In this document: piece after piece, positions 7,221-53,288 of the stretch
Numbering within the stretch: position 1 is the first letter of the stretch
Layout of the letters: each line of letters opens with the position of its first letter
Origin: Thraustochytrium sp. TN22
Lineage: Eukaryota > Sar > Bigyra > Thraustochytrida > Thraustochytriidae
Assembly: GCA_013306675.1 (NCBI GenBank)
Contig: JABLUY010000058.1
Span: 1-64,000, forward strand
Direction of reading: 5' to 3'
Length of the DNA stretch: 64,000 nucleotides
Program-made: the position numbers and the translations under genes
The notes under the pieces: model-generated
What the model was told of the DNA's origin: nothing
The model's input: the letters and a program-made list of their open reading frames with translations, nothing else
The model's database searches: none

Positions 7221-7376
7221 TTTTCCTTCGTTCACGCGCGCGCGCGTACATGACCGGAGCTGGCCTCGTCCAAGTCCTCCGTCCTTTTTGCTTGCACGCC
7301 CGCACCGACGAGTTTTTCTCCTTTTTCGGTCCGTCTCGCTCGTCTGCGGGCACCCTAATACCTCACATAACGATTG

Positions 7377-7570
7377 ATTGACAAGTACACGCACAGGTTA
7401 GCTAAGGTTAATTGGAACTGAGCTGCCAAGAGTGAGATCGAACGTGCGTTCATTCGCTCACGCCTCGATGACGCCGCTGCCGATGGCCGTCGCCTCGGAC
7501 GGCAACGCGCCCTCCTTCTTGCCAGCCACGCTCGCCTGTGGGCCGGACGCAATCAGCTGCGCCACGATGG
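7377..7570 (-). repeat. tandem duplicate of the 3' end of the Nbp35-like gene (copy A)
   Basis: 194 bases at 7377-7570 repeat the adjoining 7571-7764 (copy B) with scattered substitutions and small indels. Copy B holds the last codons, stop and 3' flank of the Nbp35-like gene on the minus strand. Copy A still encodes the same terminal peptide, with a few changes, and the same stop after GSGVIEA. It has no gene body attached, so it is a downstream partial duplicate and not a separate gene. Confidence 0.9.
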
Positions 7571-7651
7571 ATTGACAAGTACACGTACAGCTTAGCTTAA
7601 GTTAGAACTGAGCCTACAAACAGTGAAATCGAACGTGCGTTTTTCATTCGC

Positions 7652-8785
7652 TCACGCCTCGATGACGCCGCTGCCGGTGGCCGTCGCCTCGGACGACGAC
7701 GCGCCCTCCTTCTTGCCAGCCACGCTCGCCTGCGGGCCGGACGCAATCAGCTGCGCCACGATGGCACGCAGCGGCTCCAGGGCCGCGCCGTCCAGGATCG
7801 GCTGGCCCGACTCAGCCGCAGACTGCAGCTTGGGGTCCATCGGGATGGCGCCCAGGTAAGGCACGTCAAAGGCGGCCGCCATACCGCGCGGCCCGCGGCC
7901 CGCCGCCGGGAAGATGTCCAGCGCCACCTCAAGGTCCAGCAGCTCCGGGCAACGCTCGCGCAGCGCCGCAAGCGCAGCCTCCGTGCGGTCCTCGCCCGAC
8001 GCCGACACGAGCCGCAAACCGGCCAGCGGCAGCCGCGAGGCCGCCATGTTCTCCACCAGACCCAGCACCGGGATCTTGGTCTGCTTGCAAAAGTTCAGCT
8101 CCTTGCGCACGTCCATCATGGCCACCTCCTGCGGCGTCGTCACAACCACCGCGCCGTCATCCGGCCGCAGGCTGTCCTTGAGCAGCTGCACGATGGAGAT
8201 GTGCTCGTCCGAGGTGCCCGGCGGCGTGTCAATCACCAGATAGTCCAGCTCGCCCCAGTCCACCGACGTGAAGAACTGCTGGATCAGCCCGTTCTTACGC
8301 GGCCCGCGCCAGATAACCGCGCTGTCCGGGTCCGGCATCAGGAACCCGATCGACATGACGCCAAGCTCGCAATCCTCCTCGCCGTCCGTGTCCACGTCCA
8401 CGTAGACGGGCGACCACCCGGACGCGCTCTGGTGCACCTCCTTGCCCGAGAGCCCCAGCAGCAGCGGAATCGACGGCCCGCAAATGTCCAGGTCCAGCAG
8501 GCCCACGCGCTTGCCAGCGCGTGCCAGCCCGAAGGCCAGCTGCGACGAGAACGTCGACTTGCCTACGCCGCCCTTGCCCGAGAGCACCATGACGGTGCGC
8601 CCGATCATCTTCATCTTCTCCGCAATCGCTGCCGCCTCCGCGTTCGGCTTGCGCATCTCGCCGCTCGCGCACAGCGACGCGTTCGGGCACCCGGCGCAGG
8701 ACGCCGCCTTGCCGGCCTGCTCCGACGCCGGCCCCACGCACTCCTCGTTCGCGCCCGCCGGCGCCGCGTTCCCGTCCGCGCTCAT
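7652..8785 (-). CDS. Nbp35/NUBP1-like P-loop ATPase of cytosolic Fe-S assembly
   Basis: 377 residues from the ATG at 8785; upstream frame is Gly/Glu/Arg low complexity. Nbp35 is a scaffold of the cytosolic iron-sulfur assembly (CIA) machinery. The N-terminus carries the diagnostic C16-x13-C30-x2-C33-x5-C39 cluster site. The deviant Walker A (GKGGVGKS, 70-77), LLDLDICGPS and DTPPGTSDEH define the Mrp/Nbp35 family. The C-terminal CPxC motif that normally follows VENM and bridges the cluster between two subunits is not present: VENM is followed by AASRLPLAGL. The protein could therefore be a divergent or specialised paralog. Its 3' end is tandemly duplicated downstream. It is divergent from the acyl-CoA reductase fusion gene, 843 bp away. 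Confidence 0.88.
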   Translation of the reverse strand: MSADGNAAPAGANEECVGPASEQAGKAASCAGCPNASLCASGEMRKPNAEAAAIAEKMKMIGRTVMVLSGKGGVGKSTFSSQLAFGLARAGKRVGLLDLDICGPSIPLLLGLSGKEVHQSASGWSPVYVDVDTDGEEDCELGVMSIGFLMPDPDSAVIWRGPRKNGLIQQFFTSVDWGELDYLVIDTPPGTSDEHISIVQLLKDSLRPDDGAVVVTTPQEVAMMDVRKELNFCKQTKIPVLGLVENMAASRLPLAGLRLVSASGEDRTEAALAALRERCPELLDLEVALDIFPAAGRGPRGMAAAFDVPYLGAIPMDPKLQSAAESGQPILDGAALEPLRAIVAQLIASGPQASVAGKKEGASSSEATATGSGVIEA

Positions 8786-8852
8786 CGCGCCGCCGCTTTC
8801 GCCGCCGCTTTCGCCGCCGCGTTCGCCGCCGCGTTCGCCGCCCTTGCCGCTT

Positions 8853-8892
<40 letters not shown>

Positions 8893-9628
8893 GCCCTCGC
8901 GCAGCGCTCTCTGTTCGCGCTCTGCCGCAACCAGCCGCTCGCCGTCGGCAGCATCCTCGTTGTCGGCGCCTCTTGCGCGGAGCTCCGAGGCGCCGCTCGC
9001 GACACGAGCAAAAGGCCAAAAAAGGCAAGCTGACGACTTGATCATGTCTTGACGAAGGAGAGGCTTCGGACGGACGTCGACAAGCCCCGGGGGCGAGCGG
9101 TCGTCGAGCGTCGGCCGAGCGACGGTCGAGCTCGAGCCGCGGAGCTTGGCTCTTCGTGCAGCGAAAAGCCTTGCCTCGATGTCGTCCATCATCTTGCGGT
9201 CTTTCGGACTGCGCCATCGCGACCTACGGAGAGCCGCGAGCAGCGAGCGAGCGAGCGAGCGAGCGAGACCCAGCGACGAGGGTTCGTGGTGCGCCTTCGC
9301 TCGCGACGAGGACCCGGCAGCTTCGAGCTGTGCAGCTCGCCTCGCTCGCCGCGCTCGTTGTAGCTGACTGTGAGCTCGCCTTCAACTTGAAGTTGGCCGA
9401 GCGCTCGGAGCGCTCGCCGCGCCTCCGAGTTCGAGTCGTCGCACGGCTTGGGTCGCAAGCCTCGGTGACGCGACGCGGTGGGACCTGAACGGGGACCATC
9501 GAGCCCCTGCAACGACAGCAACCAGCGGGCGGCGGCCAGCGCGGCGCACCGCAAAGCGTAATCCTGGCGTGGCGTCGCGTGGCGCGGCGTGGCGCGGCGC
9601 GCGCGGCGACGAGGCCAGCGCGAGGGCG
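8786..9628. promoter_or_regulatory. divergent intergenic region between the Nbp35-like and FAR fusion genes
   Basis: Contains a GGC triplet run near 8850-8892 directly upstream of the Nbp35-like ATG, a GAGC tetranucleotide run at 9243-9267, and TGGCG pentamer-like units at about 9565-9595 just before the FAR fusion ATG. It is presumably the shared promoter region of the two genes. No separate gene is supported. Confidence 0.4.
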
Positions 9629-12600
9629 ATGAAGGGCAGCAACGCGGCGGCCGCAAGGGCTGCAGGGCCCGCGAGCCGGGCTGGCGCCGCTGGCGAGGGC
9701 GCTGACTCGGGCGTCGACGACGATGTTGAAGTGCAAGAGGTACAGGACGTGCTGCGCGGGAGGTCCGTGCTGGTGACAGGGGCGACCGGATTCGTGGGCA
9801 AGGCCATCGTGGAGAAGCTGGTGCGCGGCTTCGAGGTGCGGCGCGTCTTCTTGCTCATCAGGCCCGGCAAGGGACGGCTGGCGGCGGAGCGCCTGCAGCA
9901 CGAGGTGGTGGAGTCCGCCATCTTCCAAACGCTGGAGCGCAGCATCGGGCGCGCGGCGGTGCGAGAGCGATGCGCGCGGATCCTGACGGCGGTGGCCGGC
10001 GACGTGGCGCTGCCGCGGCTCGGAATTAGCGACGAGGACATGGCACGCATGCAGGGCGAGGTAGAGATCATCCTGCACTGCGCGGCGTCGGTGAACTTTG
10101 ACGACCCGCTGGACGCGGCGCTGGAACTCAACACGGAAGGCGCGCTGCACGCGCTCGAAGTGGCGCGCCTGCTGCGCGTGCGCTCGCACGTGCACATGTC
10201 GACGGCCTACGTGGCGGCGAACCAGCGCAGTGGCAATGTCATCCCGGAGGAGGTGCACCCTCTGAGCTTCGACCCGGACGAGGTTCTGGAGCACCACCGG
10301 CGCGGGCCGAGCCTGGGCGGCGGCGGCGGCGGCTTGAGCCGCCTGCAGCTGCGCATCCAAGGCGATTACCCCAACACGTACACGCTAACCAAGGCCATGG
10401 GCGAGACCTTGCTGGCGCGCCGCCACGGCGACATCCCGCTGGCCATCGTGCGCCCGTCCATCGTTGGCGCGGCCTGGCGCGAGCCGTGCCCGGGCTGGGT
10501 CGACGTCGTGAGCGCCGCCTCGGCCATCTTCATGGGCATGATGCTGGGCGTTGTCACTCTGCTGCCAGGTAATCCTCGCGGCGTTGCGGCCATGGTGCCG
10601 GTGGACCACGTGGTGAATCACACGCTCCGGGCCGCAGCGGAAGTTTGGGATCGTCCCGGTGCGCTCCACGTTTCGCACAGCTGCTCATCGACCTTCAATC
10701 CGTGCCGCTGGCGCGTCGTCGCGGGAACCACCGTCACCGCCATGCGTAAGCGCCGCCTGCCGTCCAAGCTCACGCCGGGGCTCTCGCACTTCCGCTTGGT
10801 GCACAACAGGGAGCAGTTCGAGCTTGAGTGGGCGCTCGGCTACGCGCTGCCCACTTGGGCCGTCTCGCAGTACGCGCGGTCCTTTGGTGGCCCGGATGCC
10901 GCGCGCCTGGCGCAAAAGATGCGCCTGCTCAAAGAGCGCTCCGAGCAAATCATCGCGCTCTTCGAGCCCTTTACCACGAACGACTTCCGTTTCGAGACCG
11001 CCGCGGCGCAGCGCTGGACGCACGCTGCCGTGGCCGCGCGGCCTGCTGGTGGCGACCTCAGCGTGGACTCGCTCGATATCGTCTGGACGCGCTACTTGGA
11101 AAACTACGTCTTTGGCCTGCAGCACTACGTGCTGCACGAGGACTTCGTCCCGGTCAGCGAGTCGGCCGTCTCGCACAACGACGTCAGCCTCACGCTCGGC
11201 CGCCTCCTCAAGTGGGACCCGGATCACCACCGCATCAGCTTCCCGGGCATCATCTCCGACATCTCTTGGGCCTACACCTCGAGCCGGCGCCCGGGCTACA
11301 CGCGGTCCGGCGTGCTGGGCCGCCTCATGGGCCTCACCGGCTGGCGCGAGGGCCTTGCGCACGAGGCCAAACACGTCTCGCGCAAAACGCACCGCTCCCC
11401 CGCCGACATGCGCGCGCTCGTCATGCGCGCCAAAGGCGTGCGTCGGGCGATCAAGGACGAGCTTAGCGCGCGGATTGACGCCGCCAAGCGCGACGCCGCC
11501 AAGCGCGACGCCGTCGGCGAGACCGCCAAGGTGTCCCGCGCGGCGGTGCGCGCCGAGGTCTCGGCGCATGCAGAGGCGCTTCTGGGTGAGATCGCCAGCA
11601 CCATGACGGACGGCCCGCCGCGTGCGATCGCCTGGGCTCTGCGTAAGATCTGGCGCCGCATGTACGACGGCGTGCGCGTCCACGAGGAGGGCCTCGAGCG
11701 TTTGCGCACTGCCGCGGCCGCGGCGCGCCACCCGATCGTCCTCGTGCCCACGCACCGCAGCTACGTCGACTTCCTCATGCTGTCCTTTCTCATGTTCGCC
11801 TTCAACCTGCCGGTGCCCTTTGTGGCTTCTACGACCGACTTTCTCTCCATGAAGGGCGTTGCCAGCATGCTGCGCTCCGCGGGCGCCTTCTTCTTGCGTC
11901 GCCAGGGCGCCTTTGACAAGGACCCGCTCTACGCCGCCGTCTTCACTGCCTACATGCAGCAGCTGCTGCAGGACCGCCAGATTGTCGAGTTCTACATTGA
12001 GGGCACGCGCAGCCGCAGCGGCAAGTGCCTTGACCCCAAGCTCGGCCTCACCTCCATCTGCATCGAGCCGGTGCGCGACGGCCGCCTGCAGGACGTTATC
12101 TTTGTGCCCATCTCCATCGACTACGAGAAGCCTGTCGAGGCCGCGCTGTACTCGCACGAGATGCTCGGGTCCGCCAAGATGCCCGAGACCACCGAAAACC
12201 TCCTGCGATCCGTGCTGCGCCTTGGCAGCAAGTTTGGCTACGTCTCGGTCCAGTTTGCGGACCACATCTCGGTGCGCGAGCACCTGCAGCGCGCCGCCCC
12301 CGCCGCCTCACCGGAGCGCGTGCTCAGCCTGCGCATTGTCGACGCCATGCAGGACGCCGCGGTCTGCATGCCCATCCACCTCGTTGCCACGCTCCTTCTC
12401 ACGTACCGCCACGGCCTCACGCTCGATCAGCTCGTGCCCTCGGTCGAGTGGCTGCGCGAGGAGGTCCTGCGCCGCGGCGGCCACGTCGCCTGCGCCGAAG
12501 GTGAGCACCGCGTCGACCTCGTCCAGCGCGCCATCCGCCTACTCGGCCCTGTCCTGCAGCAGCGCCACTCCCCGCGCCTCGTCGAGGTCGCCGTCGATAG

Positions 12601-13360
12601 CGCTTCCAAGGACTACCACAACATGGTCGTTCTCGGCTATTACCGCAACAAGATCATCCACCTCTTCGCCGATGAGGCCTTTTGGGCCTGCGCCATCTAC
12701 GCACGCGCCGACGCCACCTCCGGCCTCGCCGACCTCCGCGTCGTCCAGGAGGACGCCTGCTTTCTCGACCAGATGCTGCGCAATGAGTTTGTGCACTCGC
12801 CACGTGACGTCCGTGACAGCCTCCTGCACATGCGCGACCGCCGCGTCGTGCACATTGAAGGCGACGCGCACGTGCGTATCGCTCGCGACGACCCGCACGC
12901 GGACCGCGTCTTTAGCCTGCTCTGCTCCATGGTCTGGCCCTTTGTGGACAGTTACTATGTTGCAGTATCCGCGCTCCTCGCGCTGCTCCCAGACGCCTCG
13001 GTGCACGTTGCCACGCTTGTGCAGCGCATGCTGACCCTCGCCGAGAACCTCTACCACGACCGCATCATCCTGCACTACCAGAGCTGCGCCTCCATCACTC
13101 TCATGAACGCCCTGCGCACTCTGGCCAGCTGGGGTGTCGTCGCCATCGAGCGCCGACAGGCCCCCAAGCGCCCCGCACAGCCGTTCCAGACCGAGACGCT
13201 GGTCCGTCTGCTGCCGCCCTACGACTCGCGCGACAAGCTGCACGACCTCATCACCCGTATCGAGGCTTTGCGCGGCCCTCGCATTCAGTCCCGTACGCCT
13301 TCTTCGGCAAGCACCTCGTCGTTTTCCGTCGCAGACTTTCCCCTACTCGCCCGCATCTGA
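9629..13360 (+). CDS. bifunctional fatty acyl-CoA reductase / DHAP (glycerol-phosphate) acyltransferase
   Basis: 1243 residues from ATG 9629; the frame opens 20 codons earlier at a GTG. The N-terminal half is an alcohol-forming fatty acyl-CoA reductase: NAD(P)-binding TGATGFVGK at 50-58, catalytic Y251-x3-K255, and a FAR C-terminal-like segment (LENYVFGLQHYVLHEDF, near 495). It would reduce acyl-CoA to fatty alcohol with NADPH. The second half is a PlsB/GNPAT-type acyltransferase: HRSYVD (H709, D714), the glycine-rich EGTRSRSGK block at 791, and a GPAT C-terminal region with YYRN at about 1004. It would acylate dihydroxyacetone phosphate. Together these are the two peroxisomal inputs to ether-lipid (plasmalogen) synthesis. 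A comparable fusion is known in Dictyostelium. The protein ends ARI, which fits the loose PTS1 consensus, as human GNPAT ends AKL. No introns. Confidence 0.9.
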   Translation: MKGSNAAAARAAGPASRAGAAGEGADSGVDDDVEVQEVQDVLRGRSVLVTGATGFVGKAIVEKLVRGFEVRRVFLLIRPGKGRLAAERLQHEVVESAIFQTLERSIGRAAVRERCARILTAVAGDVALPRLGISDEDMARMQGEVEIILHCAASVNFDDPLDAALELNTEGALHALEVARLLRVRSHVHMSTAYVAANQRSGNVIPEEVHPLSFDPDEVLEHHRRGPSLGGGGGGLSRLQLRIQGDYPNTYTLTKAMGETLLARRHGDIPLAIVRPSIVGAAWREPCPGWVDVVSAASAIFMGMMLGVVTLLPGNPRGVAAMVPVDHVVNHTLRAAAEVWDRPGALHVSHSCSSTFNPCRWRVVAGTTVTAMRKRRLPSKLTPGLSHFRLVHNREQFELEWALGYALPTWAVSQYARSFGGPDAARLAQKMRLLKERSEQIIALFEPFTTNDFRFETAAAQRWTHAAVAARPAGGDLSVDSLDIVWTRYLENYVFGLQHYVLHEDFVPVSESAVSHNDVSLTLGRLLKWDPDHHRISFPGIISDISWAYTSSRRPGYTRSGVLGRLMGLTGWREGLAHEAKHVSRKTHRSPADMRALVMRAKGVRRAIKDELSARIDAAKRDAAKRDAVGETAKVSRAAVRAEVSAHAEALLGEIASTMTDGPPRAIAWALRKIWRRMYDGVRVHEEGLERLRTAAAAARHPIVLVPTHRSYVDFLMLSFLMFAFNLPVPFVASTTDFLSMKGVASMLRSAGAFFLRRQGAFDKDPLYAAVFTAYMQQLLQDRQIVEFYIEGTRSRSGKCLDPKLGLTSICIEPVRDGRLQDVIFVPISIDYEKPVEAALYSHEMLGSAKMPETTENLLRSVLRLGSKFGYVSVQFADHISVREHLQRAAPAASPERVLSLRIVDAMQDAAVCMPIHLVATLLLTYRHGLTLDQLVPSVEWLREEVLRRGGHVACAEGEHRVDLVQRAIRLLGPVLQQRHSPRLVEVAVDSASKDYHNMVVLGYYRNKIIHLFADEAFWACAIYARADATSGLADLRVVQEDACFLDQMLRNEFVHSPRDVRDSLLHMRDRRVVHIEGDAHVRIARDDPHADRVFSLLCSMVWPFVDSYYVAVSALLALLPDASVHVATLVQRMLTLAENLYHDRIILHYQSCASITLMNALRTLASWGVVAIERRQAPKRPAQPFQTETLVRLLPPYDSRDKLHDLITRIEALRGPRIQSRTPSSASTSSFSVADFPLLARI

Positions 13361-20459: not shown

Positions 20460-21200
20460 CCTGGCGGCCGCGGTCTGCGCGCTTGTCCGCGTTGGGCGCG
20501 CTTTCTTGCCTACGCGCCTTCTTGTCCGCCTGCACGCGCGCGCTGCGCTGCGCCGCGCCGCGCTGCGCTGCGCCGCGCTGCGCTACGCAGTGTTGCTTGC
20601 CGCCTCCACTCCTCTCCTCTCCTGCTCTTGTCGTGTCGCGTCGCGTCGTGTGCGCCGTCGCCGCCATCACCCGGAAAGCGAACTTTGGAGTGCACGACGT
20701 TCTCCGGGCATGCTTATCGTCGGACCCTAAGTTTGCGCGTTGTAACAAAGAGCGTAGTACACTTAGTCCGTTGACATTAGACCGAAACGGATAGTTGCTC
20801 GTCCGAGTCGTGCCGTCCCGATAGGCTCGTCAACTCCACCAGCGGCGGGCTGCGGGGCCTTGCTCCTCGGCCGGGCTCGTGCATTGCTAACATAACAATG
20901 AGCTTGGCCAGCTCAGCTGGCGTCTCCGTGGCAAGCCGTTGTGAAGCGTTTTTTTTTTTTCAAAGCTTAGTACCCGGGTACCCCATTTCGAGTTGAATGG
21001 GCTATCACCACACAGTGTAGGCCTACCTGGAAGGCCAGCCAGGAATAGATGTCTTGCTTCCCGCCGGACCCCCGCATAATCAATCAGTACCCGGGCGAGA
21101 CGGCGCCCGAGACGGCGCCCGAGACGGCGCCCAAGACGGCGCCCGAGACGGCGCCCGAGACGGCGCCCGAGACTGCGCAGAACCGGGCAGAGCGTCATCC
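20460..21200. promoter_or_regulatory. divergent intergenic region, SPEF2-like / EGF-7TM gene
   Basis: Includes a GCGCTGC-type run near 20540-20590, a T12 tract near 20950-20961, a perfect palindrome GTACCCGGGTAC at 20971-20982, and the 12-mer array described separately. No gene is supported. Expected to hold both promoters. Confidence 0.4.
21097..21180 (+). repeat. 12-bp tandem array (GAGACGGCGCCC)
   Basis: Seven consecutive 12-bp units, the fourth and last with substitutions, end 20 bases before the ATG of the EGF/7-TM gene. The length is a multiple of three, so the frame stays open through it (DGAR-type repeat), but it lies before the first ATG and is most simply 5' UTR. Confidence 0.85.
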
Positions 21201-22352
21201 ATGTGCCCAGAGCGCAGTTGCGGCGTGCACAGCCGGTGCGAGGCGGGGCGTTGCGTGTGCGAGGCGCTCTGGACGGGCAGGACCGACTTCCTCTTGTACG
21301 ATGGGTATGGTTGCCCGAGCTATGAGCCAGTCAACTATTGTGTGTGGGCCGTTGTGCTCCTCGCCTGCATCGTACTGGAGTGGCGTATCGTGCGGGCTGC
21401 CTACGTCATGTTGCCGAGGATACGTCGGAGGCGACGCTCGGCTTCGAAGCGGGGCAAGACGACTTCGTTCTGGAGGGAGCCCTTCGTGCGGCTCGCGCTG
21501 CTGGCTCATCTTTCGCCGCTATGTATGAGCGTCGTGGCTGTCATGAAGCTGCTAGATGCTGGAAGAGAAATCATCGGGAGGGACGTGATGGTGTCGGCCT
21601 TCTTTTGGATCTCCACGACTTGCGGCTTCGTTGGCACAATTACCGCGGAGACACTGACCTTTGATGCCTTGAGCAGGAGCCTCAACGCGCAGCCAAAGGA
21701 GGTACTCGCGAGGATTCGGCGGCAACTAGTGGTGAGCACGTCAGCATCCATCGCTTTCTACGCGGTGTGCACCGGAGTTGTGCTCGTGGTGGGTTGTGCG
21801 CAGCAGGAGGACGTGGACCCTAATACTTCGAGCGTGCGGTGGCTCTTGCTGCTCAAGAACGGTGCTGTGATAGTCTACTTGCTTGCAAACCTCGTAACGG
21901 CGCGGGGCGCGGAGGCTCGCGTCGACGGCCTCCGTGGAGACCTGCGAGCGTTCAGCACGGGAACCGACTCGGACGTGCAGATGCGGGCCTTCCTGCACAC
22001 GCTGCACCAGAGCGTGCGCGACAAGCTGCGCGTGGCGCGCGTTGGAACGGTTCTTTACACGGTATTCTCGCTGCCCTGGCTCTGGCCGCATCAAACGGTG
22101 CTCGTCGCCGTCATTACCATCCGGATCTTCACCTCGAAGATGCACTTTATTCTAATCAACCAGTTCATGCAAGGGTCCAAGGTGAGACGTAAGCCAACGC
22201 TCAACAAAATCACCACCCGTGCGTCTCTGGCACTGGGCAGCGTTCAGAGCATGGAGGTGCTGTCGAGCGCCGCGGAAGAGCAATCACTTTGCTCCGCGAA
22301 CTACGACGTTCCCATAAACAGTATCAAAGACGGTGATCAGCTCAGCAGGTGA
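21201..22352 (+). CDS. EGF-like, seven-transmembrane protein (family not recognised), paralog 1
   Basis: 383 residues from ATG 21201, chosen because it aligns with the start of the convergent paralog. A short cysteine module (C-x4-CG-x4-C-x3-GRCVCEALWTG, then DGYGC) resembles an EGF-like motif and should face outside. About seven hydrophobic segments follow: VWAVVLLACIV, VRLALLAHLSPLCMSVVAV, SAFFWISTTCGFVG, IAFYAVCTGVVLVVGC, LLKNGAVIVYLLANLV, VLYTVFSLPWLWP and VLVAVITIRIF. A basic cytosolic tail ends the protein. The block TVLYTVFSLPWLWP-x-QT is shared exactly with the paralog. No cleavable signal peptide is evident. Receptor or transporter function is possible, but nothing in the sequence decides it. 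Confidence 0.72.
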   Translation: MCPERSCGVHSRCEAGRCVCEALWTGRTDFLLYDGYGCPSYEPVNYCVWAVVLLACIVLEWRIVRAAYVMLPRIRRRRRSASKRGKTTSFWREPFVRLALLAHLSPLCMSVVAVMKLLDAGREIIGRDVMVSAFFWISTTCGFVGTITAETLTFDALSRSLNAQPKEVLARIRRQLVVSTSASIAFYAVCTGVVLVVGCAQQEDVDPNTSSVRWLLLLKNGAVIVYLLANLVTARGAEARVDGLRGDLRAFSTGTDSDVQMRAFLHTLHQSVRDKLRVARVGTVLYTVFSLPWLWPHQTVLVAVITIRIFTSKMHFILINQFMQGSKVRRKPTLNKITTRASLALGSVQSMEVLSSAAEEQSLCSANYDVPINSIKDGDQLSR

Positions 22353-22751
22353 CCTATTTGGTCCAGCGCACCGGCACGCACTGGCACGCACGACTGTTAG
22401 CAGAACGATTGCAAGATCGCGGCACGATCCAGACACGCACGACAAAGTGCCAAAGTCGCTCGCCTGGCCGCGCGAATGCTGTTACACTCTATTAGCTGCT
22501 CACGGACGCACGAGCTGAGGCGTAAGCCAAATCACGGCTCGCTCAGGTTACATCCTTCACGTCAAACGGGTGTTTCTTTTTTATTGGACCCATCGTTGCA
22601 TGGACGTCCTGCCGGGCGCAGCACTGGTACCCCCCCCCACCACTCTCCCCGACGAACTTGAAGTGTAAAGAAATTATCCTTACCAAGAACCAACCTGGGC
22701 AAGACATGATGCTCTATGTCACACTCCCTGCGGCGCGCGACGGCGCGTGTG
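22353..22751. other. convergent intergenic region between the two EGF-7TM genes
   Basis: 399 bases of lower GC between the two stop codons, with a T-rich tract near 22577 and a C9 tract near 22630. Presumably both 3' UTRs; no gene seen. Confidence 0.4.
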
Positions 22752-23945
22752 TCAGGGCAAACTGGATTTTGTTCGCGTTTCACCAGCCGCCCCCGATGTG
22801 GAGGTGTCCTCGACCTGAGTCTCTGTTGCTACTGTGGAGAGCAACTGGTGAGCGACCGTCTGCACGGATAGGCCAACCACTGCGGGCGCCGTGGTAGGAG
22901 CCACGTGCGTGGCCGGCATGACGGAGGCTGGGTTGCGGTGGGAGCTGCTGTGGCCGCCAGTGTACGCCTTGCCATTGCTGGATACGGTCATGAAGTTGTG
23001 GACGAAGTGCGCCTTACCGCAGACCTTGATGATGACAAGTGCGATGGGGAAGGTCTGGTACGGCCACAGCCAAGGCAGCGAGAAGACCGTGTAGAGGACA
23101 GTGGAGACGTGCGCCAGCTTGATCTTCTCGGCGCTCGCCATCTCGAAGTGACGTAGAATTCCTTGTGCCTTGGCCGTTTCTGCGCTCTGCGACTTGCTCG
23201 AGAGTGTGCGCAAGAGCTCGGTGGCCTGGCGCGACGCAGTCCGCGCGATGAAGGCCATCGCTTGCATATAAAGGATAAGAGAGCCATTGCGCATGACGAT
23301 CATGAAGCGCATGGGAGACGCGCGCGGATCCTGGCGTGGCAGTACGCAGCCGCTGAGCACGACGACTGCGGTCATTATGCTATAAATAGCGATCGCGGCG
23401 CCCTGCCTGCGCACCAGAGAGCGCCGAAGCTTGGCCACGTCCTCGGCCTTGAGCTTGCTCATGCCCAGCACGAGCGCGTCGAAGGAATAGATTTCAGCTG
23501 CAAAGTTACCGACAAAGGCAAAGGGCACGAGGATGCTGAAGACGACACTGAGCACCCACGAGCGGCCGAGCTCGCGATCCTCGACGAGTAAGGCCTTGGG
23601 CAAGGAGAGCATCAAAATCATGGGAATTCCAAGAACACCCAGGATGATGAAGCGAACGGGGGGGAACTGCCACGCCGTGAGCTTCTTGCCGCGCTTCATG
23701 AGACGGTGGCGCTCGCGCAGGAAGCGGCTATACTGCGCCCGGATGGCGCGAATATGGTGCACGAAGAGCTGCAGTGCAGCGAGCACGGCGATGCCCCAAA
23801 AGGCCGCCTCTACGCCCTCATGGACTGTGCAGGCGTATCCGTCGAACGAGAGCAGGTCGCCCTTGCCGGTCCACCACGGGTCGCACACACACTCGCCCGC
23901 CACGCACTGGCCGTGTCTACCGCACAGCACCTCGTCGCAGCTCAT
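22752..23945 (-). CDS. EGF-like, seven-transmembrane protein (family not recognised), paralog 2
   Basis: 397 residues from ATG 23945. It has the same plan as the plus-strand neighbour: N-terminal C-x4-CG-x4-C-x3-GECVCDPWWTG and DGYAC, then about seven hydrophobic helices. Shared landmarks are the RKRGKK/KRGKT loop before helix 2, FVGNFAAEIYSFDAL versus FVGTITAETLTFDAL, a lone GC after helix 4, and VLYTVFSLPWLWP near the end. The C-terminal tail is Ser/Thr/Ala-rich and differs from paralog 1. The two genes are tail to tail, so they arose by inverted duplication or by later inversion. Function unknown. Confidence 0.75.
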   Translation of the reverse strand: MSCDEVLCGRHGQCVAGECVCDPWWTGKGDLLSFDGYACTVHEGVEAAFWGIAVLAALQLFVHHIRAIRAQYSRFLRERHRLMKRGKKLTAWQFPPVRFIILGVLGIPMILMLSLPKALLVEDRELGRSWVLSVVFSILVPFAFVGNFAAEIYSFDALVLGMSKLKAEDVAKLRRSLVRRQGAAIAIYSIMTAVVVLSGCVLPRQDPRASPMRFMIVMRNGSLILYMQAMAFIARTASRQATELLRTLSSKSQSAETAKAQGILRHFEMASAEKIKLAHVSTVLYTVFSLPWLWPYQTFPIALVIIKVCGKAHFVHNFMTVSSNGKAYTGGHSSSHRNPASVMPATHVAPTTAPAVVGLSVQTVAHQLLSTVATETQVEDTSTSGAAGETRTKSSLP

Positions 23946-47469: not shown

Positions 47470-50400
47470 TCAATTGTTGTCGTTCTTGAGGATGTCGTAC
47501 ATGTTGGGGACGGCGACGAAGACCTCGAGCGGAAGGCTGAGGATTAGCGACTTGATGCCAGCCATCTCGTCGTTCATCTCGCGCAAGGCGGTGCGCGACA
47601 TGCGTCGGCCGATGAGCAGGAGCGCTGCGAGGACCACAAGCACGAAGATCTTCTCCCAGAAGATACTCGTGACGATGTCGTCCACTGCTTGCGTATAGGT
47701 CTGCAAGACTGTCTCGAGCCGGGCCCCGAGCAACAGCTGCGAGCGGAGGTCCAGCACGCCCTCGTGTGCGACTTGGAACTCTTCGAGCTGCGCGCTCGAG
47801 GCTCCGTCGCCCGCCTCGAGGAGGTCGTGCATGGCCTGCTCGATGCGCTGCGCGCGAGCAATAAGCCCGTTGAGCGCGTAGGCGAGGCCAAAGCGCAGCT
47901 CGCCCGCCGGACATTGCCACAGAAAGTCCGAGCTGGCCGCGGCATCTTCATTTGCGCTGCTCCATGTAGTAATGTACGCCTCGCAGTCGTCGTCACACGC
48001 GTCATAGAATATCAGCGTCAACAGGGCGTCGGAGGGGACCCCTAGAGGGTCAAGGCCAAGAGTCGCATTGCCGAAGTTGAGCGCGCGGTCGTACAGCGTA
48101 ACCTCCGCGATGTGCTCGCGCACCCGCGCGAGCGTTTCCACGGAGGGCTCCTGGGCGATCCAGTACATGAGTGCATGCACGTGGACATAGCGCAAACCGG
48201 CGACATGCACAGTCGTGGCCATGGCGGGCATCTCCTTGAGGTGCTGAAAGTCGCGCACGAAGATGAAGGAGAATTGCGCCAGCATGCACCAGTACGTGAA
48301 GCCGACGCGGAGCGTCGATTTGAGTCGCTTCCAGACGCGCGACAGCGTACGGCGGCCCCACAGCTCCGCACGATCGAAGATGGACTTCTCAGCACGAGCC
48401 AGCTTCACTTCGGCAGTGTCCGAGACTGCGGTCGACATGCGCCGGACCAGGTGCCGCGCCGAGAGCCCCGAGCCTTGCGAGATGGACCGCCGGCGCGCTG
48501 GCAAAGAGGCTTCCGAAACCGAACGAGGATGGCTCGAAGTAGTGGCGCAAGAGGACTTACGTACAATCTCATTCCCCGCGCCCTCCGAGCCGCTTTCGAT
48601 CTCGGGCGCAGAGGCAAGCAAAGATGGCCTGCCCGCAGAAGCCGGGCGCACGTGCGTCTCGCCATGGACAGCCGATGACTCTCCAGAAGTTCCAGGCGCA
48701 AAGCTTGACGTGCTTGCATTCGCGGCTGCCTCGCCTTCGCAGTCTTCTCCCGCGCTGTCTTCGCTCGACGACCCGCACGGAGAGGGCTGCGCGGGGGCTA
48801 CCTTCGCCGCGGAGCGCCCGTTGCGAAAGGTTGAGTTGCTGGCTGCGGCCCCGGACTGCAGGCTGCTTCGCCGCCTCTGGCGGCCGCTGAAGTGCATGGC
48901 CCAGTTGGCTTTGCTAGGTCGATTCCCTCCCATGAAAAAGTCCTCGGTCGTGGAGCGGTACTGCGGCGGGACCTCGTCGCGCGTCGCGAGGCCCTCTGCG
49001 GCCAGCTCGGACTGCTCGCTCTGCAGGAGAGCTTTGGACGGAAGTCGGCCATGTTTGATTTGGCGGAGCCGCATGATGGACTTCTCGCGAAGGTACGAAC
49101 ACATGTGAAGGGGGATGTTGAGGAAGGCGTTGCGCACTTTGGTGCGGTGCGACTCGAGACTGGTGACCACCGGAATGTAGCCCAGGACAAAGGCCAGGAG
49201 CAGCACCACGATGACGCTGATGAGATAGACCGAGTCCATGATCCAAAGTTCGTTGAGAAGCTGCGCGGTGCGCTCATTGTAGTATTGCGCAACTTGCTGC
49301 GCAGTAACGATGGGATCCATCGCCACGAGACTGTTCACAAAGCCGCAGCTATCCTCTTCGCAGGTGACTGTGTCATTCACGGCCGCATTGCGCAGGAGGT
49401 CCTCGACATGCTCGAGCGCCCCAACCACGCCCATATGGAAGCTAATTCCGTCGATCAGCACGTTTCCGACGTCCTGCGGCGAGGCATGCGACGGGGTGTG
49501 CAAGAGCGCCGTGAGTACCGGCTCGAGCGCGTCCCTGGCAAGCGCCACGATCTCGAGATGCAGGTTGGACAGTGCGGCAGCCGCCTCCTGAAGGCCCGTG
49601 ACCACGTCCGGGAACGGGTTCTCCGATGCGTGGAAAAGGTAGAGGGGGACCAAAGAGAGAAGGTGGCCCTCCTCCAGGACCGCGGCCATGCTCTCCACGA
49701 CAGTCTGAAAGCCGCGGTAGCTCTTCACAACCAAGAAAGTATTGAAGAATGCGAGCAGGACGCAGAGCAGAATGAGTCGGCCAGAGAAGAGGCTGAAGGC
49801 GGCAATTTTGGGATCCTGGGCGCGTAGACTGTGCGCCAGCCTGCGCCGCAAGATCTCAATGTGCTTGTCCAGGGGGATGCTGCCCTCTGCCCTCCCCGAG
49901 CTGCAGCTCTCCTGGTCAATGACGCTGCCTGCTCCGAGTGCAATGCCGCCTCCGACTGCAACGCTTCGCCCGCCCCGCCTTGACGCGGCGCCAAATTTAG
50001 ACTTGGGGCTCTTAAATTGGAGCTCGCTCTCCGCGCGGCTCTCCAGCGCTGACTGCATAATGCTGGCGTTGCCCTGCATCTTGTAGCGACTGCCGCCGCC
50101 CTTGGGCCTGCCCATGCTTTGGTGCTGCCGCGAGAAGGCCGGCGAGAGCGCCTTTCCGCCCATGACGTGCAGATCCTGCTGCGAGCCCTGGCTTGCCTGC
50201 GCCTCCAGCTGGCCACTGCGAAGCTTGAAGCTGACCATATACATGGCCACGGCGTACTGCACGGCCGCCTCGGGGCGCGACTTGAACTCCATGCGCCGGG
50301 CACGAACGGCAAAGGGCCGCCCCGCGCGCGTGATGTCGCGCTCCGTCATGTAGCGCACGTCGCCATTGCGTAGGTAGAAGTTGGGCAGGATGTCCGTGAT

Positions 50401-52572
50401 GCGCACATTGCCGGCGTGGAGCTCCTCGCGTTTGATGCGGAGTGCGTCCACGGCGTGCTCGCTGAAGCTCGTGACGATAGAATTAGCTGCATTCACGAGA
50501 AGCAGGTGGGCGCCGTCGGCGAGGGGGCGCTCAATGAAGGTGCCAATGAGGACGATGCCCCCCGACGGAGATGTGCTGGGCGAGATGACAAAGTCGAGCG
50601 GCGTGATGTGGCCCTCATGGTGCATACCGTAAATGCGGCGCGTCTTGGTGCCAAAGTCGCTGTCCTCCGTCAAAAAGTGGCGCAAGAAGTTGTCGTGCAC
50701 CGCGTCGAGCGGCTCCGGGCACAGCACGCGGATGTTGCGACCGAGCAGCTCGGCGCGCTCATAGCCGAAGAGCTGGCACGCCGCCTCGGTGACCTCCACG
50801 ATCTTGCCCAGTGTGGCGAGGTCGCCGCTGATGATGCAGACGGCGTAGCCGTTCTGCGCCTTGCTGAGCGAGTCCGCGGAGCAGCGGTCAAGGATGTTGA
50901 TGGCCGCTGGAAGGTCGTGGCTGACGTAGGCTGTGAAGGTAGCGTTCCAGCGCAGCGCCGCAGACGAGGACTCTGAGATCTTCATGAGCGTCCGAATATG
51001 GCCACGACACAACGCTGAAGTGCGACTGATGGCCTGCGCTGACTGGATGAGCTCTTCCATGCTGGCGGCGTTGCCAACACGTTGCCAGAACTTGCTGGTC
51101 AGCAGCATCACGCGCTGCAGAAGGTCTTTGCTCTTGTGCAGATGCCTGTCAAACTCCATGTAGGACATGGCCCCATCCTGCGCCTGGGTCTCGCGCAGGT
51201 CCGTGCTCATGCAAAAGAGGGCAAAGTCCAGGTCCATGTACTTGGGCATCTCTTTGGCGTCCTTGATGCAGTTGAGCCCGAAGACCATCTTTTTGCCAGA
51301 CTGCAGTGACCAGGACGCCACCACCAGATGCAAAAAGGCGCTCTCGTCGAATTCCTCAAGCCGGGCCCGGTACGCGTCGAAGACCGACCCGGTCCAGGTG
51401 AACTCCTCGATTCGGGGCAATTTACCAGCGAGGGTCGCAGGCTTCATGACCTGCTGCAGGCGGAGCTGGACCTCCGCCACAAAGGCGCTGCGGTGCGGGT
51501 ATTTGGGCTTGAGGCGTGCCAGCCCGACGGCCCGGCTACGAACCCGCGTGCTCGCTGTGTGCAGGGCGAAAGGGAGGCCGAGGACCCAGCACAGAAGCGA
51601 GCTGGAGTCGCCCGTGTCGCGTACAGCGTGCGCGCAAACCAGTGAGACAGCGGTCCAAAGAAAGGCCGCGTAGGCCACCGCCGCGAACATGTTCCATCGC
51701 AGGTCAAAGAATGGAAGGTACCAGACGTAGGCGCCCACGGCGCCCAGGCCCGCCGCCATAAGCGTCGATAGCACGGCCACCTCGGCGATCGTCCCGAGCG
51801 GGCCGCCAATAATGTCCACCACGACCACCGTGAAGTTGGCAAGGCTACGCAGTCCCGTGACGAAGTACTCTACGCGCCCGTGCGCAGCACGGAAGCCGCT
51901 GCGGCGCAGGCGTCCTGTCATCGGGTTCCGCTCATACGGGGTGACGCGGACGATGAAGAGCGCGTGCAGCATGGTCACCGCATAGAGCATGGTCAGTGTG
52001 AGCGCCAGGACGATGTGCTTGGTGACCTCGAGGAGCGAGCCGCACGGAAAGATGTCCGCGGCCCCACTGCTGCACGGCCATGCTCGCAAGAGTATACTCT
52101 GCACAGGTTGGAACAGCACGGTCTGCTGAAGCCGCAGGATCATAGCCCAGATCGCGTGCCAGCGCGTCTTGCTCACCTTGCTCTTGCCTCTGCGAACGCG
52201 CGCAAACGCCACGAGGGCCCCGAAGCAGCCCCATACGAGCGCGAGCGCAAGAATCAGGCTGACCAGATATCCCGCCGTGGACTGCGACACACGCGGGCCC
52301 TCCGCGAGCGGGCGCAGTAGTCGCGTCACGACGCTGGCCACGCCCGCGGTCCAATATCCCCGTTCGCTCAGCAGGAACGCGAGGTAGGTGAGTTGCAGCG
52401 CCTGCACAAGCACGGAGATCTGAAAGAAGCTGCGGTCGCCGAAATCTTGCCTCCATATCTCGTAAAAGCCCGAGAAGATCCACGCCTTCCCCACACTGAT
52501 GATGTCGCCCGAGGTGCTTGAGTCGTGCTGCCCGGCCTCGCCCGTCCCTCCGGCGAGCTGGAGGCCGCCCAT
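47470..52572 (-). CDS. large multi-pass membrane protein with a PAS domain (TmcB/TmcC-like)
   Basis: 1700 residues from ATG 52572, which sits in a perfect GCCACCATGG context; the frame opens three codons earlier at GTG. The N-terminal 330 residues carry about seven hydrophobic helices (SVLVQALQLTYLAFLL, YLVSLILALALVWGCFGAL, IVLALTLTMLYAVTML and others). A cytosolic helical region follows (AFLHLVVASWSLQSGKKMVFGLNCIKDA ... SMEELIQSAQAI), matching the tiny-macrocyst-like proteins of ciliates. A PAS domain lies near 565-700 (ITLGKIVEVTEAACQLFGYERAELLGRNI-type). Further helices occur at about 930-960, 1120 and 1430-1690, with extracellular loops bearing Cys. The middle is a Ser-rich linker. Related proteins act in sensing, but the ligand and output are unknown. 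Confidence 0.7.
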   Translation of the reverse strand: MGGLQLAGGTGEAGQHDSSTSGDIISVGKAWIFSGFYEIWRQDFGDRSFFQISVLVQALQLTYLAFLLSERGYWTAGVASVVTRLLRPLAEGPRVSQSTAGYLVSLILALALVWGCFGALVAFARVRRGKSKVSKTRWHAIWAMILRLQQTVLFQPVQSILLRAWPCSSGAADIFPCGSLLEVTKHIVLALTLTMLYAVTMLHALFIVRVTPYERNPMTGRLRRSGFRAAHGRVEYFVTGLRSLANFTVVVVDIIGGPLGTIAEVAVLSTLMAAGLGAVGAYVWYLPFFDLRWNMFAAVAYAAFLWTAVSLVCAHAVRDTGDSSSLLCWVLGLPFALHTASTRVRSRAVGLARLKPKYPHRSAFVAEVQLRLQQVMKPATLAGKLPRIEEFTWTGSVFDAYRARLEEFDESAFLHLVVASWSLQSGKKMVFGLNCIKDAKEMPKYMDLDFALFCMSTDLRETQAQDGAMSYMEFDRHLHKSKDLLQRVMLLTSKFWQRVGNAASMEELIQSAQAISRTSALCRGHIRTLMKISESSSAALRWNATFTAYVSHDLPAAINILDRCSADSLSKAQNGYAVCIISGDLATLGKIVEVTEAACQLFGYERAELLGRNIRVLCPEPLDAVHDNFLRHFLTEDSDFGTKTRRIYGMHHEGHITPLDFVISPSTSPSGGIVLIGTFIERPLADGAHLLLVNAANSIVTSFSEHAVDALRIKREELHAGNVRITDILPNFYLRNGDVRYMTERDITRAGRPFAVRARRMEFKSRPEAAVQYAVAMYMVSFKLRSGQLEAQASQGSQQDLHVMGGKALSPAFSRQHQSMGRPKGGGSRYKMQGNASIMQSALESRAESELQFKSPKSKFGAASRRGGRSVAVGGGIALGAGSVIDQESCSSGRAEGSIPLDKHIEILRRRLAHSLRAQDPKIAAFSLFSGRLILLCVLLAFFNTFLVVKSYRGFQTVVESMAAVLEEGHLLSLVPLYLFHASENPFPDVVTGLQEAAAALSNLHLEIVALARDALEPVLTALLHTPSHASPQDVGNVLIDGISFHMGVVGALEHVEDLLRNAAVNDTVTCEEDSCGFVNSLVAMDPIVTAQQVAQYYNERTAQLLNELWIMDSVYLISVIVVLLLAFVLGYIPVVTSLESHRTKVRNAFLNIPLHMCSYLREKSIMRLRQIKHGRLPSKALLQSEQSELAAEGLATRDEVPPQYRSTTEDFFMGGNRPSKANWAMHFSGRQRRRSSLQSGAAASNSTFRNGRSAAKVAPAQPSPCGSSSEDSAGEDCEGEAAANASTSSFAPGTSGESSAVHGETHVRPASAGRPSLLASAPEIESGSEGAGNEIVRKSSCATTSSHPRSVSEASLPARRRSISQGSGLSARHLVRRMSTAVSDTAEVKLARAEKSIFDRAELWGRRTLSRVWKRLKSTLRVGFTYWCMLAQFSFIFVRDFQHLKEMPAMATTVHVAGLRYVHVHALMYWIAQEPSVETLARVREHIAEVTLYDRALNFGNATLGLDPLGVPSDALLTLIFYDACDDDCEAYITTWSSANEDAAASSDFLWQCPAGELRFGLAYALNGLIARAQRIEQAMHDLLEAGDGASSAQLEEFQVAHEGVLDLRSQLLLGARLETVLQTYTQAVDDIVTSIFWEKIFVLVVLAALLLIGRRMSRTALREMNDEMAGIKSLILSLPLEVFVAVPNMYDILKNDNN

Positions 52573-53288
52573 GGTGGCCACGGCGAGCCACCCGGCCGCG
52601 AGCCGAAGCTAGCTTGCCAAGCTAGCACAAGCTCGCGGCGCGGCCTGGCGCCCCACCGGCGCCGCGGCCTGCCGGCCGCGCGCACAAAGGGCGGCACCTC
52701 CGCGCGCTCGTGACTGCCCGTTCGCAGCCACGGGCGGCCGTCCGAGCGCGGCGACGCGGGCAGAAGACCGCAGAGGCCCTGCCTGTGCAGTGCGCGCAGG
52801 AACTCAGTAACGTTGTCCTTTGGTGCAACTAATGTAAGTGACCACAGCTCAAGCCTCAGCCTGCCAGTGAGGCGATGACTCGACTGGCTAGCTAGCTAGT
52901 TAAAAAAATCGATGCTGAGGAAAGGACCCCTCGACGCTTGTTGGTTGACTCAGGTTGCTTGCCCAGGCTGTGTCTGTCGTCAGGGTCGGGACGCCCGGCA
53001 CCGCGCACGAATCCCCGCGTACCCAACGGCACTCGCCGACTCGGGTCGAGGCGAGCGGGACGCCAGCCATGTGTCCTTTTCCTTTCGTCGCTTGGCTGCT
53101 TGGACGAGCGACCGAGCTCAGCGAGCTGGGGTGACTTGATTCTGCTTGCTGCCGTGGGCGTCTGGACCAGGCGGACGTCTCAAGCGCGGTATTGTGGTAC
53201 CCGCTGGTGCGGTTGGCATGATTTTAAAAAACATCGTCTTACGCGATCGAGTTCTGTACAGAGGATGTGCATTGTGCCTACCAACGTG
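52573..53288. promoter_or_regulatory. upstream region of the PAS membrane protein gene
   Basis: Includes TAGCTTGCCAAGCTAGC near 52609-52626 (inverted CTAGC units) and a CTAG run with an A7 tract at 52889-52910. No gene supported. Also contains the 3' flank of the F-box gene. Confidence 0.4.

Follow-up and report, generated by a model that had tools for sequence, protein, structure and literature searches.

A convergent gene pair in a thraustochytrid may belong to an expanded family of receptor-like proteins with one EGF-like module and seven predicted helices

Results

The window analyzed here, bases 1-64000 of contig C407 (JABLUY010000058.1; window 67% G+C) in the 37.9-Mb, 453-contig assembly of Thraustochytrium sp. 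TN22, carries two adjacent genes for EGF-7TM proteins, in which an epidermal growth factor (EGF)-like module is followed by seven predicted transmembrane helices (7TM; single helices are TM1 to TM7). We propose, at a little under an even chance, that the two are local duplicates inside a lineage-expanded family of about 20 short receptor-like membrane proteins. Gene A (21201..22352, plus strand) encodes 383 amino acids (aa) and gene B (22752..23945 with the stop codon included, minus strand) encodes 397 aa, each in a single exon. As originally predicted from the DNA alone, the two open frames are present and lie tail to tail within 21201..23945, with stop codons at 22350-22352 and 22752-22754 that are 399 bases apart.

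By calculation the two proteins are paralogs, as had been claimed: they are 37% identical across 325 aa (E 5e-66 in a single comparison), with the identity distributed over module and helices alike. The C-terminal tails did not align clearly, in keeping with the differing tails noted earlier. The longest identical run, VLYTVFSLPWLWP, sits at the end of TM6 in both proteins in the alignment (22050..22088, plus strand, in gene A; 23061..23099, minus strand, in gene B). The original prediction had described a signature before the last helix; that signature is real for the pair, but the full motif is pair-specific, and what the core members introduced below have in common is a Pro at this place and a Gly ahead of TM3.

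Both frames had the best codon score of the six at their positions (0.08 bits per codon for A and 0.24 for B, with statistics trained on window genes that have Pfam support). By the same statistics the regions 5' of both ATGs showed no clear coding signal, the stretch for gene B being only 54 bases. A 12-base unit is repeated about seven times at 21096-21178, immediately 5' of gene A, where the gene's reading frame is open and has no coding signal. For gene B we considered an additional exon further 5' that would encode a signal peptide, with LLRLALLARLPVS right before the ATG, but did not adopt it. The ATGs were kept because the LLRLALLARLPVS frame has no start codon, the 54 bases have no clear coding signal, and several other family members start with a Met immediately before the first Cys. 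Signal-peptide-like starts were seen by eye in three members (C222a, C222b, and C246).

Chance is excluded, as the family searches brought up 18 more loci in this genome. The copy count, gathered by genome searches with seven members as queries, came to 20 loci, the window pair being two of them; a core branch holds 12 and a distant branch the other 8. They are spread over C407, C222, and C310 (two each), C217 (three), C110 (four), and C73, C74, C181, C246, C404, C414, and C440 (one each). Gene B protein by itself matched 12 other places in the genome at E<=10. A search with a DNA pattern was uninformative, as the pattern and its backward control each hit 2 places. The 18 further loci lie in open frames, except that the match at C217:1875 crosses a TGA and one C110 copy shifts frame. 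The four C110 copies stand in tandem at C110:197730-204856 (plus strand); the match of the last (203898) carries on in another open frame at 204731, and this copy appears to be either broken or an assembly error. Two C110 copies were left out, and the other 18 of the 20 loci were read as proteins.

A maximum-likelihood tree of these 18 members split 12 (the core) from 6 with support of 100/100, and midpoint rooting placed the window pair as the first branch of the core. Close copies cluster: neighboring copies on C407, C222, C310, and C110 (its two in the tree) pair together, as do two of the three on C217 (93/90). With the EGF part removed, hhalign linked the window pair to an 8-member group at 95.6%, that group to the C414/C440 pair at 99.8% and to the C217/C404 group at 86.4%, and C217/C404 to C110 at 95.6%; the 12-member core and the 6-member distant branch matched at 94.2% over 183 columns. 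Other links run counter to this. Without the EGF part, the window pair reached only 23.6% with C414/C440, 4.5% with C217/C404, and 8.4% with C110, while C414/C440 against C217/C404 gave 0.7% and the 8-member group against C110 gave 1.0%. Several single links thus fail when the EGF part is removed, and the eight distant loci therefore belong via chains of intermediates.

Two further candidates were set aside. The protein at C429:12343 (L044:337-1683, minus strand) opens with an EGF-like part and contains several hydrophobic segments; it was excluded, as its helix region scored 0.2-1.3% against five groups of the family and it has no Pro in the stretch where family members end TM6, and it is possibly an independent EGF-membrane fusion. 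C414:17199 (E 0.23, with internal stops) was dropped as a chance match.

The module ahead of the helices contains six cysteines in both proteins, as first described, at C2-7-13-18-20-38 in A (residues 2-38; 21204..21314, plus strand) and C3-8-14-19-21-39 in B (residues 3-39; 23829..23939, minus strand). It sits directly on TM1, and its location outside the cell is predicted. All 18 members read have the six cysteines, the fourth and fifth as C-x-C. From the fifth to the sixth cysteine, counted by eye, there are 18 positions in 16 members and 16 positions in 2, so that the loop between them is drawn out to about 17 residues. This spacing exceeds that of most EGF domains. In Pfam, gene A matched EGF_Teneurin (E 0.014) and EGF_2 (E 0.12) and gene B matched EGF_Teneurin (E 0.00013; 22.4 bits, cut-off 24.3) and EGF_2 (E 0.0023), all of them under the curated cut-offs. 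Over the wider family, at E<=10, both domains matched 13 of the 13 members of alignment A2 (best E 9.3e-7 for EGF_2 and 2.4e-7 for EGF_Teneurin), and EGF_2 matched four of five further members, one of which, C217c, passed the curated cut-off (24.0 against 22.1). C404 had no EGF family row in the Pfam search. Judged by these comparisons, the EGF-like module is the family's sole known domain.

The helix region had no significant match in Pfam, NCBIfam, or the PDB sequences, where the significant matches fell in the EGF part. Its best PDB rows (SLX4, E 0.04; a GABA receptor subunit, E 1.1) and the best NCBIfam row (FliH, E 0.005, in 1 of 13 members) were taken as chance. No Pfam 7tm class gave a row at E<=10 in the full tables for the window pair and six more proteins, and none was among the matches listed (25 of 28 families) for the 13 members of A2. 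Pattern scans with four or two sequences, suited to close relatives only, returned 60 and 54 matches in viral contigs and 67 in bacterial and archaeal genomes, none confirmed as a relative. None of the open-licence papers listed in our literature searches was on the EGF-7TM family. The claim that the family is unrecognized is supported within the libraries searched as far as the helices are concerned, but its EGF module is a known domain.

Seven helices were predicted for gene A at about residues 42-324 (21324..22172, plus strand) and for gene B at about residues 43-323 (22977..23819, minus strand). AlphaFold models, made from the two window proteins alone and of low confidence (pLDDT 49.6 and pTM 0.42 for A; 56.8 and 0.51 for B), each contained seven membrane helices, the seventh in two pieces, along with an EGF-like hairpin; the model of A also had a short helix in the tail. 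Mean hydropathy across the 12 core members gave six segments and no seventh above threshold, and individually both window proteins showed a peak at residues 301-319. With helix ends placed by hand, the calculated mean net charge of the core members was -5.6 for the N-terminus, +5.9, +4.0, and +3.8 for the odd loops, and +0.1, -0.3, and -0.6 for the even loops, the last of which is one column. This alternation fits an N-terminus outside the cell, and under that topology the three cytosolic loops would be 30-31, 25-31, and 43-47 residues long. The seven helices originally described therefore stand as a prediction, drawn from the loop charges and the two models. Apart from the EGF module, we found neither a significant match to a characterized family in the libraries searched nor a model without seven helices.

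Two residues are invariant in the core (each 12/12): a Gly ahead of TM3 and the Pro where TM6 ends. The cytosolic end of TM3, a place of G protein contact in many receptors, holds a branch-specific stretch, in which Gln, Pro, and Leu each occur in 10 of 12 core members and the window pair has Phe-Asp-Ala-Leu.

Fold comparison of the low-confidence models with G-protein-coupled receptors (GPCRs) and transporters, a check suggested at the outset, yielded no significant match either way. The insignificant lists contained channels and pumps, which would suit a transporter or channel family wearing an EGF-like cap, as would one C110 copy that matched Choline_transpo (E 0.03; 14 bits, cut-off 26.9). 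No transporter family reached the Pfam cut-off among the matches listed, and we regard this explanation as quite unlikely.

The tails bear on another explanation, in which these are adhesion or anchoring proteins, for example of the cell covering or the ectoplasmic net, whose helices only hold the EGF knob while the tail binds a scaffold. Four of the 18 members read (L006, L007, L010, and L011) end in an acidic run followed by Tyr-Val (DDDDYV, EDDYV, DDDGYV, and DDDGYV), which resembles a PDZ ligand and is possibly that or a sorting signal, and the genome has 16 PDZ rows. EGF modules are also common in adhesion proteins. However, neither window gene has such an ending, and an anchor would presumably need fewer than seven helices. 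The PDZ evidence is itself weak because 12 of the 14 prokaryotes used as controls give PDZ matches as well. Overall, an anchoring role seems unlikely.

Among named families, the closest architectural parallels each differ from the family described here. The TMEM8 family, for which the name PGAP6 is also used, belongs to the CREST superfamily of seven-helix lipid hydrolases.

TMEM8 proteins place a six-cysteine EGF-like domain ahead of a seven-helix domain, a layout like the one predicted here, and in TMEM8c the conserved Ser and Asp are gone (PMC3146951), which leaves room for diverged superfamily members that lack catalysis or use other residues. The CREST motifs were, however, largely missing: of the 12 core members, none has SxxxH toward the end of TM2, none has HxxxH near TM7, and 3 have Asp where TM3 starts. 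In addition, no CREST row was among the Pfam matches listed for family members. The predicted cytosolic loops of 25-47 residues are also unlike those of TMEM8. We rate such an origin as the least likely of those considered.

EGF-TM7 adhesion GPCRs (CD97/ADGRE5) combine EGF outside the cell with seven helices, as is predicted here. They carry 3 to 5 EGF domains (PMC8191316), whereas members here have one. The GPS-like hallmark HL[ST]xF was absent from the 19 proteins examined, no 7tm_2, GAIN, or GPS row was among the Pfam matches listed for the family, and in both window proteins TM1 is preceded by the EGF module alone, leaving no room for a GAIN domain. Membership in the adhesion GPCRs is not supported by these comparisons. 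In the thraustochytrid Hondaea, latrophilin-like receptor A is a 7TM protein with a short ectodomain, as is predicted for the proteins here; PMC10445921 places it among family 2 (secretin-like/adhesion) receptors, for which the present family has no row among the Pfam matches listed.

In class C, mGlyR/GPR179 has a Cache-EGF ectodomain whose EGF-like domain is joined to the 7TM part (PMC12716839). In contrast, only the EGF module stands ahead of TM1 here, and there is no 7tm_3 row among the Pfam matches listed. When the family was compared by hhalign with six of the 38 class C rows in the same genome, the values were 0.1, 0.6, and 0.2%, while a split class C control gave 98.7%; by these values class C membership is not supported. 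The proteins could also be far-diverged offshoots of a known GPCR class (C, adhesion, or cAMP-receptor-like), with similarity decayed below detection. This reading overlaps with our proposal, the difference being one of descent rather than function; we hold it to be unlikely too.

The genome is rich in heterotrimeric G proteins. Of 24 G-alpha rows, 15 are over the cut-off, amounting by count to about 12 near-complete genes; three G-alpha genes lie inside 8 kb at C205:8293-15946. Class C 7TM rows exceed the cut-off in 37 of 38 cases, with five rows clustered on C437 (8-27 kb) and four on C222 (440-454 kb). Enrichment of G-protein and GPCR domains has been described for thraustochytrids (PMC6050695).

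Elsewhere in the window, the neighbors include a CPC1/SPEF2-type flagellar protein and a phospholipid-transporting ATPase. One open frame at 9374-13357 (plus strand) combines fatty-acyl reductase-type (Male sterility) and glycerol-3-phosphate acyltransferase (GPAT) regions, and a TmcB-type protein with TPR plus PAS lies at 47473-52608 (minus strand). At 7370-7764, a 194-base unit occurs in two tandem copies with an 89% match and overlaps the low end of a NUBPL/ParA-type frame (7655-9223). Elsewhere in the genome, two genes score above the cut-off for PfaD (polyunsaturated fatty acid synthase); together with the neighbors in the window, they are in keeping with a thraustochytrid.

Discussion

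The original prediction saw in this pair the diversification of a receptor-like protein. The pair turned out to be part of an expanded family of 20 loci; a receptor function of the family is plausible, with no significant match from the fold comparison. In the arrangement we propose, a single EGF-like module outside the cell would be followed by seven helices and a variable cytosolic tail. The EGF knob would bind a surface, the matrix, or a partner protein, and the helix bundle would signal this binding to the cell interior by way of its basic loops and of the tail. The most likely recipients would be heterotrimeric G proteins, given their abundance in the genome with about 12 near-complete G-alpha genes, and the fast-changing tails would set the copies apart in their partners or location.

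More tentatively, and with the balance tilting against it, these proteins may form a class of their own among eukaryotic seven-helix receptors, one that expanded and diversified in a labyrinthulomycete lineage and couples to its enlarged G-protein set. Such a class would be marked by a minimal single-EGF ectodomain and by helix signatures of its own, namely a Trp in TM1, the Gly ahead of TM3 and the Pro closing TM6, and either Gln-Pro-x-Leu or Phe-Asp-Ala-Leu where TM3 reaches the cytosol.

If the family members are receptors, this organism would have a second sizeable receptor set, beside its many class C receptors and its roughly one dozen G-alpha genes, that the domain libraries searched have missed; annotation would give these proteins only an EGF-like domain, or nothing. 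Since the ectodomain of the window pair is some 40 residues long, they would also offer an unusually small system for learning how an EGF knob could drive a seven-helix bundle.
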